Shown here piece by piece: positions 7,851 through 64,000 of a stretch of DNA of 64,000 nucleotides. Source of the stretch: Lutjanus erythropterus (Eukaryota; Chordata; Actinopteri; Lutjaniformes; Lutjanidae); assembly GCA_020091685.1 (NCBI GenBank), contig CM034613.1, positions 3,386,845-3,450,844 of the forward strand, read 5' to 3'. A model generated the notes under the pieces. It saw nothing but the letters and a program-made list of their open reading frames with translations. It was not told the DNA's origin and ran no database searches. Made by a program: the position numbers and the translations under genes. Each line of letters begins with the position of its first letter. Positions within the stretch are counted from its first letter, which is position 1.

Positions 7851-9035
7851 TAGGGTTCTTCAGCTTTTTGGTTCTTCAACACTTTTGGTTAAAGGTAGAG
7901 TCATTTATAAAGGTTCCACCTGGAACCCTTTCAGGGAATTCCAATGAGAACCCAAGATAAAGGGTTATACCTCGAACCATCCGTGAAAGGCTCCACACAG
8001 AACCCTCTATAAGAGGTTCTACAGAGAACCCTTCTGTGGCATAGTGGTTGCACAGAGAACCCTCTCTGATGGATCTATTCAGAATCTTTCCACCTTCTAA
8101 GGTTACCAACAAGAACCCACCAAGGGTGTTTTACCCTGAGACCCCTTTAAATTCCAAGGCTTTCATCTACTACCCACCCCGGATGTTCAGCCAAGAACTC
8201 TTTTATATCCCAGGGTTTTCGTCTGGTCCCATTCAGGGGGTTCTACCAAGAACTCTTATATTCTAAGGGTTTCATCTAGAACCCATTCAGGGGGGTCTAC
8301 TGAGAACTCCTTTTATATTCCAAGTGTTTCATCTCCCAGGGTGTTCTACCCAGAGCCTTTTATATTACAAAGGTTTCATGTAGAACCCACCCAAACAGAT
8401 ATAAAAATATATTTTATGGGTTTTTATTATTCTTATTATTATTTTAAGGGTTTCACCTATAAACCTTCTATGAAGAACCATATTGTTTTCTACATGCAAG
8501 GCAAAAAAATCATCATCTGCCATTTTACCATCTTTTACACTGAGAAAACTTCTCTTAACACTGATGCTTTCAAGACACTTAGAAGAACTCTCTTCCAGAA
8601 ACGTTTTTCATGGTTCTTAATGGAACTACTAGTCTCACAAAGAACCCCTGATGAACCCTTTCTTTAAAAATGGGTTAAAATGGGTTCGGGGTAGAACCTT
8701 GGTTACCTTGCAAGGTAGCTGGATTCGCAAGATCACAAGCTCACCTGAGAACCCATCTTGCCAGGCTTCAAGATGTCTGTTTGTGTCCACACCAAAAGTG
8801 GTGCAGCCAATCAGTGTCCCTGGAGGGGCCACTGGTAGCTACGGTTAGTTAGCCCATGTTAGATGTGATAGACAGATGGTTCATCCAATAACCTACCAAG
8901 TGTTTTTTTTTTTAAAGGACCTGCCCTTTTTCAAACAGTTTCTAAGAACGACTTCCCAGATAGGTCTTTGTAACAAACCATCTGGCTTGTCATGTTAGAA
9001 ACCTGGTCCTTCAGAAGGAACCCTTTTGGAACCCT
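7850..9035. repeat. Degenerate GAACCC / GGGTTC tandem array
   Basis: The stretch repeats GAACCCTT, AAGGGTTTCATCTAGAACCC and GGTTCTACC(A/C)(A/G)AGAAC with irregular spacing. It is dense from 7850 to 8410 and thins to scattered units near 9035. Each unit carries both GAACC and GGTTC, so the array is rich in short inverted repeats. I recognise this type from other fish intergenic regions. The 78- and 108-codon frames over it are repeat translations. Confidence 0.7.
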
Positions 9036-12129: not shown

Positions 12130-12690
12130 TGAGAAGCTGAAAACAGCAAACACTTAGCATTGATTCTGTTGATTGACTAATCAGTTAATGAAATCATGTC
12201 CACACTACTTCATCTATATCTGTGTTAATTATTAAATCAATCGTCAACTATTTTGATAATTGATTAATGAGGTTTTTTTAAGACAAAAAGTAAAAATTTC
12301 AACTGCAGATGCTATTTGCTCCCAGGATGGACTAGCCATTGTGGCTATTTGCACTTGGGGTGGAACAGCCAATGTGGCTGTTTGCACCCTGGGTGGAATA
12401 GCCAATAGCTTATTTGCACCTGGGTTGGAATATCCAGTGTGTCTATTTGCACCCAGGGGAGGATAGCGAATGTCGCTGTCTGCATCTGGTTGGGAACAGC
12501 CAATGGGACTATTTGCATTTACAGTGGAATGGCCAATGTGGCTATTTGTGAATATTTTCTGGTTTCTTTACTTCACTCTGACAATAAACTGAATATCTTT
12601 GAGTTGTGGACAAAATACGATATTTGAGGACGTTACCTTGAGCTTTAAAAAAAAAATCTACTATGAATATAATCGTGATTTGAGTCCTAG
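12130..12690 (+). mobile_element. hAT-like element copy carrying an internal 33-bp minisatellite
   Basis: Left of the array is GATAATTGATTAATGAGG; right of it is GAATATTTTCTGGTTTCTTTAC then ATAAACTGAATATCTTTG. The right-hand block has a counterpart in the copy at 34835-35092. Here the expected middle is replaced by seven 33-bp units. The ends are diverged and no target duplication is clear. Confidence 0.45.
12311..12550 (+). repeat. 33-bp minisatellite, left array
   Basis: Just over seven units of a 33-base repeat with the core GCTATTTGCACCTGGG and a second half TTGGAATAGCCAATGTG. Units differ by about 10-30 percent. Because 33 is a multiple of three, the array stays open and codes an 11-residue period such as AICTWGGTANV; one single-base change shifts it to another frame near 12430. 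It lies 0.8 kb upstream of exon A. The same unit occurs in reverse at 15111-15330. A real protein is unlikely. Confidence 0.85.
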
Positions 12691-13312: not shown

Positions 13313-13399
13313 ATGAGTGAGGACAACCACTCCCACTACAGGCTGGACCCCAGCGATCGCCTCAACGGGCTGGGACAGAGGAGAAAGAGACCCAAGAAG
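13313..13399 (+). CDS. ank2: First coding exon A of an ankyrin gene, ANK2-like N-terminus
   Basis: The exon carries an ATG and 29 codons with no stop, ending AAG followed by a GTACAT donor, so the exon ends in phase 0. The peptide starts MSEDNHSHYR and ends NGLGQRRKRPKK. From memory, the first coding exon of mammalian ANK2 is 28 residues, also has an acidic ED near the start, and ends NGSSQRRKRPKK before the conserved SDSNASFLRAARAG of exon 2. The matching tail, similar length and phase-0 end support an orthologous exon. The in-frame TAG at 13259-13261 and lack of an intervening ATG fix the start. Ankyrin-B is a membrane adaptor that couples ion channels, transporters and cell-adhesion molecules to spectrin; this segment precedes the ankyrin repeats. 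Exon 2 is not in the window. An ank3 paralogue with an ank2-type exon is the main alternative. Confidence 0.72.
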
Positions 13400-13438
13400 G
13401 TACATGAATAGATGGAGAGCCACATGGTGCACAGGGTG

Positions 13439-17255: not shown

Positions 17256-17268
17256 ATTGCGATTAACT

Positions 17269-18015
17269 GGTCTTCATCACAGTAGTTGAAACCTCTAGAA
17301 AAGGCCAGTAACTGGACCTTAAGTTTAGATATTTTTGTCAATTTACACGTGATTTGACATTTGGCACAAAATGTCTTGATACAGCAGCTTCAATCCCTTT
17401 GGAATTGCATTACATCACTCAGATTAAATTGCCTTCAACTGGGTATTTAACAAGGTTCAGGGTTAGAGCTTTCAACAGGTCTTCATCACAGTAGAAACCT
17501 CCAGAAAAAGCCCGTTAACGGACCCTAAGTTTAGATATTCTTGTCAATTTACATGCAATTTGACATTTGGCACAATATGTCTTGACAAAGCAGCTTCAGT
17601 CCCTTTGCAACTGTGTTGCATCACTCAGATCAAACTGCCATTAACTAGATATTTAACCATTTTTTTTCTAGGGCTTTCAATTGGTCTTCATCACAGTAGT
17701 AGAAACAGAAGAAGCCAGTCATCAGACCTTAAGTTTAGATTATATTGTCAATTTACATGTGATTCGACATTTGGCACAAATGTCTTGATACGGCAGCTTC
17801 AAGCCCATCACAACATCATTACAGTACATCACTTGGATTTATATTTCCTTTAACTGGGTATTTACCTGGATGTTTCTAGAACTTTCTTCCTCGCTGTAGT
17901 ATAAAACTCTAGAAAAAGTGGACCTTAAATTTAGATTATTTTGTCAACTTATCTGGGTACAAGACGTAATATGTTTCGATATAGCAGCTTGACTCCCTTC
18001 AAAATGACCTGAACT
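17269..18015. repeat. Four-copy tandem repeat, unit about 205 bp
   Basis: Unit starts at 17269, 17478, 17683 and about 17884, giving spacings of 209, 205 and 201. Shared blocks are GGTCTTCATCACAGTAG, CTTAAGTTTAGATA, TTTGACATTTGGCACAA, TGTCTTGATA and GCAGCTTCA. The fourth copy is the most diverged. No coding potential is retained across copies. Confidence 0.85.
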
Positions 18016-50139: not shown

Positions 50140-51120
50140 ATTTGATGTTGGTGCGAATTTGGTGTAAAACTTAAAATGGTGGAAAAAAAATGGTGGAAAT
50201 ATGAAATCGATATGAATCTGGTGCAACGTGGCGTACAACAAAGTTGAAATTGGTGCAAATTTAATGTGTAGAATCTGATGTGAAACAAATGTGAAGGTGA
50301 TGCATTTCTGTTCCAAAATACTGTGTAAAAGAAATTTTAAGTCAGTGCAAATTTGATGTAAAACTTGGTGCAAAACTAATTTGAAATTGGTGCAACTTTG
50401 AAGTAAATCTTGATATATAACGTATTTGGAATTGTTGCAAATTTTGTGTAAAATTGGGTGCAAAACTAATTTGAAAAAAGTGTAAATTAGGTGTAAAACT
50501 GTGCAAAACAAATCTGAATTTTATGTAAATTTATAGTGAAGCAAACATGAAATTGATGTGAATATGGTGCAACATGTGGTGTACAACAAATTTGAAATTA
50601 GTACAAATTTAATCTGCAGACTTAAGTGTAAAACAAATAATAAATTTTTGCAATTTTGCTCTAAATATGGATGTAAAAGATCAGTCAGTGCATTTTTTGT
50701 AAAACAATTGTAGGTTTTTTGTATGATTTGGTATAAAAATTCATTTGAAATTGGTGCAAAACACATGCTTTTGGTGTAAAACACATGCAAGAAAATATTA
50801 CGTAAAGTTATTAGAAAGTAAATATGAAATTGATATGGTGTGCAACACATTTGACATTGGTGTAGAATTGTGTAGCATTTGGTGTAAAACAAAGGTAAAT
50901 GCAGTTTTGCTGTGAAATTAGGTGTTAAAAAACATTAACCTGTGTATTTTGTGTAAAAATAAGTGCCGTTTTTTTGTAGAATACAGTGTAAAATTAATTT
51001 GAAATAGGTACAAATTTAGCCTAAAGTTTGCTATGAAATTAACTTGAATTAAGTTTGAATGTTGCATTTGTCAACAAAAACTAATTGTACATCAAATTTA
51101 GTATAATTAGGTGTAAAACC
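50140..51120. repeat. ~45-bp degenerate minisatellite, about 1 kb
   Basis: Repeats of AATTTGAAATTGGTGCAAATTTGGTGTAAAAC-type units (partly GGTGCAA, partly GGTGTAAAAC). On the minus strand one frame is open from 50892 to 50137 except for a single TAA at 50521-50523. That frame shows a period of about 15 residues, for example LVLHPILHKICNNSK and LVLHQVLHQICTDLK. Openness is expected when the period is a multiple of three; no expression evidence exists. Confidence 0.75.
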
Positions 51121-56175: not shown

Positions 56176-56259
<84 letters not shown>

Positions 56260-56262
56260 ACT
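56176..56262. repeat. (CA)n microsatellite, longest in the window
   Basis: About 38 pure units to 56252, then one AAAC and more CA. Confidence 0.95.
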
Positions 56263-57227
56263 CTGGATGGTTTGGATCCCCCTGTGTTAGCATGTCAGAG
56301 GTGAGGGATTGTGTTTAAATGGAAACACTCTACATGTGACATATGTCTGTAATGACTTTAAAATGAACATTTTGACAGACAGCAGCTCTGTGAGAATAAA
56401 TGTGTTAATAACGGTGGATGCTCGTGTTGGAGAGGCGAAGGTTTGAGGCGCCTCTTTGTCTGCTCTGCGCCCGAGGGACACCCCCCAGAAGGACGCCCAT
56501 GTCCTGGAAAGCAGGCCCCTGTGGATGGTTGGAGGGATGTTTGTGTCGTGTGAGGCGTCTCTGTGTCTGCTGCATGAGTTCATCTGAGGCGTGAAGACGA
56601 GTAAACACCTGAAAGTGTCAACATCTTCTATTATGTTGATGACAGCGGCTTTGCGGCGCTGATGATAAAAGTGTGAAAGATATTATTAAGATTAAGTTTA
56701 TTACGACATTGGTTTCATTTAGTTTTGGTCAGTGGTTTTATCTGTTTTTGTCACTAAAATAATCCAATAGGACAAGAAACACCTGCCTGATCTTTCTGCA
56801 GTCGTCCACTCACTTCTTGTCGCTGACCTCTGACCTGTTCCCAGTGGATGCTGTTGTAGGTTTTGGTCTGGTGCTCACAGACGCCCATGTTGTCTGTTTC
56901 TGGTGTCTTGGTGTTTATTCAGTGAGAGTGACCTTGTCGCTATTTCCCACATTTCCCATCATGCATTTCATGCATGATAATAAAATAGCTGCAGTGCTGG
57001 ACTGAGTAGTTTGTTACGTTTGCTGTTTTATGCTCCAGAATGAAAACATTACTTTGTGTTTTAGTGATGGTTAATGTTTGTTTAATGTCAGTTTTGTGCA
57101 GTTTTTTTTGTCTGTGATGTGTCACTGTATTGTGTTACTTTGTTCTCAGTTATATATTTTTTCAAGTTTGGATGCAGGTTCATATTGTATGTTCATCACA
57201 AGTCATCCAGCTGATGATAACCAAATG

Positions 57228-57256
57228 TTTCTGTCTTTCTTGTCTTCCAGGTAAGT
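57228..57256 (+). promoter_or_regulatory. ank2: Candidate recursive splice site (adjacent 3' and 5' splice sites)
   Basis: A pyrimidine-rich run ends TCTTCCAG at 57250 and is followed directly by GTAAGTTC, giving a zero-length junction CAG|GTAAGT. A branch-point-like TGATAAC at 57215-57221 puts its A 30 bases upstream of the AG. This matches the ratchet-point consensus of recursive splicing, in which a long intron is removed in steps. The site sits 43.9 kb downstream of exon A on the gene strand. Vertebrate recursive sites are known in long neuronal genes, and I recall ANK3 among them. The motif is seen directly; use is inferred. Confidence 0.55.
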
Positions 57257-57310
57257 TCCTCTGGACAGGGAGACACGATGAGACGGGGTCTTGTTTTTGG
57301 TGTTTTTGAG
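57251..57310 (+). other. Possible recursive-splice exon or cassette exon
   Basis: Sixty bases start at the recursive-site GTAAGT and end GAG before GTGTGT, a moderate donor. Read in phase 0 from exon A they give 20 codons without a stop, starting VSSSGQGDTM. In reported vertebrate cases the stretch after a recursive site is defined as an exon before being removed, and its inclusion usually introduces a stop; here this donor would not. The donor is weak and other GT sites nearby may be used. Confidence 0.25.
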
Positions 57311-57412
57311 GTGTGTCCTGCAGCGTCTCTGCTACAGGACACAGCTGCAGCTGCTCCGATCGTTGTATTGATTTCAACACTTGGATGAACACATCTTCAG
57401 CTGAGTAGTGAA

Positions 57413-62974: not shown

Positions 62975-63103
62975 ATGGCTCACGCCGCCGCCCACATTAA
63001 GAAGGCCAGGTCCGAGATGGACCAACCTCCGGACCTGAAGGCTCTGGAGAAAGCCAGGGAGAGGAGGAGGCGTTCCCGGGAGCGGGCTGAACGCAAGCGC
63101 AAG
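62975..63103 (+). CDS. ank2: First coding exon B of an ankyrin gene, ANK3-like N-terminus
   Basis: The ATG is in a near-ideal context (GCAGCCATGG) and opens 43 codons ending AAG before a GTACCG donor, phase 0. The peptide starts MAHAAAHIKKARSEMDQ and ends RSRERAERKRK. The long ankyrin-G (ANK3) isoforms, as I remember them, begin MAHAASQLKK and end with a 38-residue exon of basic residues (RKRSRDRKKK) before SDANASYLRAARAG. The identical first five residues, KK near position 10 and Arg/Lys-rich end support an ankyrin first exon. Together with exon A on the same strand it suggests two promoters of one gene. I use ank2 because the exon A tail is the more specific match; ank3 remains possible. 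Ankyrin repeats lie beyond the window. Confidence 0.7.
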
Positions 63104-64000
63104 GTACCGGCACTGGGATCACCCCCACCTATTCATTCCCCGCTTCATGTGACCAATGTGGTCGCTTCATCCCACTTCCAGTCACCTCATCATCATCAAA
63201 GTGTCACTTCGACTTTCCTGATCAAAGAGGACTTTAGTTAGAGTCATTATCAAGGACTGACGAAGAGTTTGCAGAGCAGAAATCATCATCAGAGACTACT
63301 CATGTCTTCATCTTTACTGTTTCCACCTTCATTATCACCTTCATCAAAAGGGAAAAAGAGTATAAAGGGACTAATTTATGGAAAAACTCGTGTTAAGACA
63401 GACTGAAAACCTTCTAGGCCACAAGACAGAAGATCTAAAGCACACTGTGTTCTGTGATCAGTCCATTGTCACCCCACAAAACCACAAGAAAACACAAATC
63501 ACAGTAAGCTGTGATTCCATCAGAACACGGCCATAATGATTGCACTCTGCTTGATCCCCGCTGTCACCGCCTGTCCTCGTCTCATCTTGTCCACGGCTGA
63601 CGGATCTTCCTCTGTCCATCCTTCATTCCACGCCTCATTCTGTCATTGTATAAATGACCTCTGTACGAGTCATTTATCACCCAATCACTGTTCCCGTCTC
63701 CCCATTCCAACACTTCCCTGGGTGGGCACCATCCCAACACTCTCTTTGTACAGTGAAATTCCTACAAATAGCTCTGCTCGTCTCCCTGTAGATGTACCTA
63801 CGCAGATCAGTCTCTGGTGCATTGCCAGGCTGCGGAGTGTACACTTTATTTGCTCACGTATAGACACAGCCTCTCATGCAAACACCAGATCCTGCTGCTG
63901 TGGGTTTGTTGGGAAGGTGTACCGCTGAGATATGCTGCATCTTTATGGTGGGTGATTTTACAGTGAGGTGTTTACTCTAACAAGCCATTTTAGGGAGTGT
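63104..64000 (+). other. Intron downstream of exon B
   Basis: The GTACCG donor begins the intron of exon B transcripts. The remaining 0.9 kb has no recognisable exon or repeat. A small perfect inverted repeat (ATAAATGAC, 10-base loop, GTCATTTAT) lies at 63650-63677; it may be chance. The open frames here, such as 63536-63928, show no known domain. Confidence 0.5.

Follow-up and report, generated by a model that had tools for sequence, protein, structure and literature searches.

The junction at 57250|57251 of the window (the whole stretch of 64,000 nucleotides analysed here, C23:3386845-3450844) is probably a genuine recursive splice (RS) site of the vertebrate type, located in the first intron of an ank2 gene. 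The motif given in the preliminary description, a pyrimidine tract running into CAG|GTAAGT without a spacer and a TGATAAC word 30 bases upstream, is borne out by direct reading of the sequence, and the distance claimed from the exon 1A donor (13399|13400) measures 43,851 bases on the gene strand. The recursive reading itself stands as the best fit to the sequence. Elsewhere in this genome, strict motifs are also present upstream of, and in sense orientation to, two genes of known RS families; the gene, however, appears to be ank2 and not ank3. The features are collected in Table 1.

Table 1. Features of the candidate recursive splice site and of its host gene, in window positions
Feature	Position	Strand	Remarks
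Branch-point-like word TGATAAC	57215..57221	+	direct reading; A at 57220, junction 30 nt downstream
Polypyrimidine tract and acceptor of the candidate recursive site	57229..57250	+	tctgtctttcttgtcttccag, ends in CAG; 13.0 bits
Donor GTAAGT, abutting the acceptor	57251..57256	+	direct reading; junction 57250|57251 with no base between
Putative RS-exon, 60 nt	57251..57310	+	VSSSGQGDTMRRGLVFGVFE; prediction; in frame, stop-free
RS-exon donor GAG|gtgtgt	57311..57316	+	8.9 bits (matrix score)
ank2 exon 1A, coding part	13313..13399	+	encodes MSEDNHSHYRLDPSDRLNGLGQRRKRPKK; phase 0 at end; weak donor AAG|gtacat at 13400, 5.2 bits
Alternative first exon 1B, coding part	62975..63103	+	MAHAAAHIKKARSEMDQPPDLKALEKARERRRRSRERAERKRK; donor gtaccg at 63104; phase 0

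Host gene and exon map

Exon 1A lies 43.9 kb upstream of the site; downstream of the site follow exon 1B after 5.7 kb and exon 2 after 50.3 kb. The start of exon 2 at C23:3494435 puts 94.2 kb between it and the donor of exon 1A. The description of this interval as the giant first intron of an ankyrin gene holds for the gene family and, counted from exon 1A, for the length, with the qualification that the interval also contains the alternative first exon 1B, which reads MAHAAAHIKKARS...KRK|gtaccg. Ankyrin matches extend from C23:3400157 to at least C23:3533375, a span of at least 133 kb; the RS host genes of mouse are very long, over 294 kb.

Six ankyrin loci of the same type are found in the genome, which suggests a teleost. 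Judged by sequence resemblance, the host gene is ank2, because the best natural match of exon 2 is ankyrin-2 (65 bits, compared with 48 bits for ankyrin-1 and 73 bits for a designed repeat protein, all from structural matches) and because exon 1A ends in QRRKRPKK like exon 1 of human ANK2, with 48% identity in 29 aligned columns. An ank3 identity was considered and rejected, as exon 2 favours Ankyrin-2; among the best 60 of 162 matches no ANK3 is named, so that ANK2 and ANK3 are told apart by comparison with the human sequences. When exon 1A was sought across the genome, the window copy alone was found, and the 12 kb examined upstream of the ankyrin locus on C16 contained no convincing first exon.

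Rarity of the site in the intron and in the genome

Splice sites were scored with matrices of typical vertebrate values. CAGGTRAGT occurs once on the plus strand of the 64-kb window and not at all on the minus strand. Among the 334 sense AGGT tetranucleotides of the 94.2-kb intron the site ranks first with 25.6 bits, the runner-up scoring 17.9; in antisense orientation, the 360 AGGT of the same intron give a maximum of 19.0 bits. By matrix score, its 5' splice site ranks first among the 6004 GT of the intron, and its 3' splice site, equal in strength to the acceptor of exon 2, ranks 13th among 6019 AG. When the upstream parts of all AG are combined with the downstream parts of all GT, the number of equal or better sites expected by chance is 0.017 on the sense strand, 0.0023 on the antisense strand, and 0.013 for both strands of the second ank2 copy on C3. 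The introns that hold RS sites in mouse are longer than 51 kb, and 75% of them are first introns (PMC8797253); the length of the ank2 intron, its first position in the gene and the strength of the 3' splice site fit the features published for RS sites (PMC8797253, PMC6110456). The site is on the sense strand of the gene.

The genome-wide counts (938 Mb in 444 contigs) put this rarity in perspective. The pattern YYYYYYNNYYYYYCAGGTAAGT has seven matches on both strands, the window site included, compared with 13 for the reversed pattern; the corresponding numbers are 22 and 41 for Y9CAGGTAAGT, and 64 and 98 for Y7CAGGTAAGT. The window site is rare, yet the class with GTAAGT is no commoner than its reversed control. 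These counts agree with the report that such sites do not accumulate significantly in the large introns of vertebrates (PMC2773006). In Drosophila, by contrast, large introns are enriched for ratcheting points, the zero-length exons whose consensus, (Y)nnCAG|GTAAGT (PMC2773006), the window site shares.

While the GTAAGT form is under-represented relative to the reversed patterns, the GTGAGT form is over-represented (Y10CAGGTGAGT, 46 matches and 21 reversed). For Y14CAGGTRAGT with at most one mismatch the numbers are 425 and 309. The excess of the GTGAGT form is presumably due in part to ordinary exons that begin with GTGAG.

Strict sites at other genes of recursive-splicing families

Recursive splicing has been reported for ANK3, CADM1 and PDE4D in human (PMC6110456), for Ank3, Lsamp, Cadm2 and Hs6st3 in mouse (PMC8797253), and for cadm2a in zebrafish (PMC5126111); the naming of ANK3 as a human case in the preliminary description is supported by PMC6110456. 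Among the papers searched, none connects recursive splicing with ank2, or with ankyrin and ratchet, and PMC6224609 mentions neither ANK2, ANK3, ankyrin nor zebrafish.

As a positive control, we considered the cadm, IgLON, ncam, hs6st, pde4 and ankyrin copies of the same genome (30 loci by our own count, the window locus left out). Perfect Y14CAGGTRAGT sites number 11 in the genome; the window site, whose tract carries a G at -6, is not among them. Two perfect sites lie upstream of, and sense to, genes of these families, as placed by their distance to matched exons. The first (C11:8604852, plus strand; flank C11:8604552-8605252) is 143 kb upstream of the exon at C11:8748139 (plus strand) of a gene assigned to cadm1 by 68 and 71% identity to CADM1 in its first two matched exons. 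The second (C11:32153481, plus strand; flank C11:32153181-32153881) is 81 kb upstream of a first exon of the NTM/OPCML type at C11:32234524 (plus strand); the matched exon that follows in this NTM-like gene is 204 kb away from the site. Beyond it lies an OPCML-like gene on the minus strand; NTM and OPCML are similarly arranged in man.

With spans of 250 kb, 0.044 hits would be expected at the 30 loci (P for two or more, 0.0009), and with spans of 500 kb, 0.088 (P, 0.0034), the spans in both cases having been set after the hits were seen. If all 14 sites other than the window site are counted that are either perfect Y14CAGGTRAGT or YYYYYYNNYYYYYCAGGTAAGT matches, again with spans set after the hits were seen, the expectation is 0.056 (P, 0.0014). 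The remaining 28 of the 30 loci, among them both cadm2 copies and five ankyrin copies, showed no strict site within 250 kb upstream when inspected by eye against the Y9CAGGTAAGT, Y7CAGGTAAGT, YYYYYYNNYYYYYCAGGTAAGT and Y10CAGGTGAGT matches and the 11 perfect sites; the same match sets contain no strict site near the PDE4 and HS6ST loci. The site at the NTM-like gene also falls within the seven-member class of the window site and has the same build, a short RS-exon (56 nt) with a downstream donor (8.8 bits). The cadm1 site has no donor at a comparable distance; one of 7.2 bits is found at +281. The cadm1- and NTM-like sites suggest that candidate recursive sites can be picked out by a strict motif search even where a fish genome is unannotated.

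At another IgLON locus, a motif with one mismatch, CAG|GTAAGA, was observed at C4:216822-216844 (plus strand), 334 kb upstream of and sense to the first exon at C4:551184.

The second ank2 copy and the case for chance

A second ank2 copy is located at C3:22755001-22905000. It has a counterpart of exon 1B, about 4 kb from exon 2, whereas this distance is 44.5 kb in the window copy; exon 1A was not found in the 138 kb examined upstream. When the two copies were compared as DNA, a GT repeat and some poor matches with E values of 0.002 or higher emerged, and none of these covers the site; in the DNA and translated comparisons together nothing above chance covers 57229-57310 among the matches listed. 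Because no exon 1A was found in the C3 copy either, its lack of an alignable site says little either way. The best AGGT in 150 kb around the C3 copy score 23.0 bits in sense (n=492) and 21.3 bits in antisense (n=522) orientation; this copy therefore has a candidate, and the candidate is no outlier.

These observations bear on the explanation that at the window site a good acceptor and a good donor of a long intron adjoin by chance, and that the splicing machinery either makes no use of them or bypasses them. We consider this explanation somewhat unlikely, although several findings speak for it. The GTAAGT class shows no excess over its control; about 0.01 such sites are expected per 94-kb intron, which amounts to many over the whole genome; the site was picked from the sequence alone; and conservation is not apparent in the second ank2 copy. 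Chance does not, however, account well for the concurrence of sense orientation, a weak natural donor, an exon-defining donor at +60, and a position in the first intron of a long ankyrin gene, nor for the perfect sites upstream of RS-family genes, which exceed the expectation.

Predicted splicing of the ank2 intron

What can be read directly from the DNA is the motif, its place and strand, the exon map, and the matrix strengths of three donors: the rebuilt donor AAG|GTAAGT with 11.9 bits (12.6 in place), the RS-exon donor with 8.9 bits at +60, and the exon 1A donor with 5.2 bits. From these we infer how the spliceosome would use the site. In transcripts from promoter A, exon 1A would first be joined to the acceptor at 57250. 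This acceptor would be recognised by exon definition, as the upstream boundary of a 60-nt RS-exon whose downstream boundary is the donor at 57311. The joining of exon 1A to it would rebuild a strong donor, exon 1A-AAG|GTAAGT, expected to outcompete the RS-exon donor; the rebuilt donor would then be spliced to exon 2, 50.3 kb further on, and the RS-exon would be skipped. The 94-kb intron would thus be excised stepwise, first about 44 kb and then about 50 kb, and the mature mRNA would carry no trace of the event.

The ank2 site resembles the vertebrate RS sites that have RS-exons: it lies in a long first intron, its strong acceptor is joined directly to a donor, and the rebuilt donor is strong and followed at a short distance by a weaker one. 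The order of its donors, rebuilt before RS-exon, is the order expected at such sites (PMC8797253). A downstream donor is not a constant feature: in mouse, 10 of 20 RS sites had no downstream junction reads (PMC8797253). The 8.9-bit donor gives weak support, because 12.9% of the AGGT in the intron have a donor that good 20-350 nt downstream; within 20-100 nt, 2.1% of 333 AGGT do, the window site included. The candidate site differs from known vertebrate RS sites in its host gene, ank2, and in a putative RS-exon that is in frame and free of stops; 68% of human RS-exons contain a premature stop (PMC6110456). Recursive splicing is a known but rare mechanism, and the finding of just 19 RS sites in mouse brain from 506 million reads (PMC8797253) makes the prior for the recursive reading low.

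The open 60 nt leave room for a cassette exon. According to this explanation, 57251-57310 would be a cassette or cryptic exon of the ordinary kind, which would insert 20 residues between those encoded by exons 1A and 2, and GTAAGT would merely be its first bases. The candidate exon is of phase 0, without stops, and followed by a reasonable donor (8.9 bits), and of 84 mouse cortex candidates that had junction reads of this type, 46 turned out to be unannotated exons (PMC8797253). At least two of the 14 other strict sites also look like ordinary coding exons (C3:38952496 and C16:16389894, open for 300 and 204 nt, GC 0.58); at two further ones the reading frame stays open over 234 nt (C2:14757100) and 171 nt (C2:15745382), but both are AT-rich. 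RS-like cryptic exons, too, combine an AGGT acceptor with a downstream donor within 350 nt (PMC8797253), as the window site does. However, in RS-like cryptic exons the downstream donor is the stronger one (PMC8797253), whereas at the window site it is weaker than the rebuilt donor, both as rebuilt and in place. In agreement with this distinction, AGGTAAGT is enriched at the rebuilt donor of RS sites and at the downstream donor of RS-like cryptic exons (PMC8797253). The comparison with the second ank2 copy, where the putative exon has no better-than-chance match among those listed, also argues against a cassette exon, and we regard this explanation as unlikely.

A further possibility, to which we give only a small chance, is that the site, located between promoters A and B, acts as a switch. 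Transcripts from promoter A would splice to the site while the polymerase still has 5.7 kb to go to exon 1B, and a retained RS-exon would lengthen the N-terminus of ankyrin-B by 20 residues in frame and would not trigger decay, so that recursive splicing would yield a protein isoform. It is highly improbable that an overlooked noncoding first exon ends at 57250 and that the junction is nothing more than its donor: the donor taken alone is the best in the intron and mouse Ank3 has five first exons (PMC4449188), but AT predominates in the 600 bases upstream (GC 0.38, CpG observed/expected 0.37, against 0.57 and 0.53 in exon 1B, although the true first exon 1A, with 0.51 and 0.32, also lacks a CpG excess), and the strong tract and the branch word would be left unexplained.

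If the recursive site is used, ankyrin-B would become one of the few vertebrate genes known to be spliced recursively, ANK2 (here) would have such a site as does its paralogue ANK3 (in mammals), and a fish model would be available in which the site can be blocked. Blocking the zebrafish cadm2a site halved the mRNA (PMC5126111). Blocking the human CADM1 and ANK3 sites left expression unchanged (PMC6110456), and the effect of the ank2 site may be similarly small.

Repeats in the window

A location of the site within a repeat was ruled out, as the 251 surrounding bases match the genome once. Tandem repeats do occur elsewhere in the window: a 206-bp unit is present in 2.6 copies at 17265-17806, and further repeats, with units of 54, 33 and 45 bp and an AC run, are found at 8147-8334, 12311-12548, 50345-50532 and 56176-56261.
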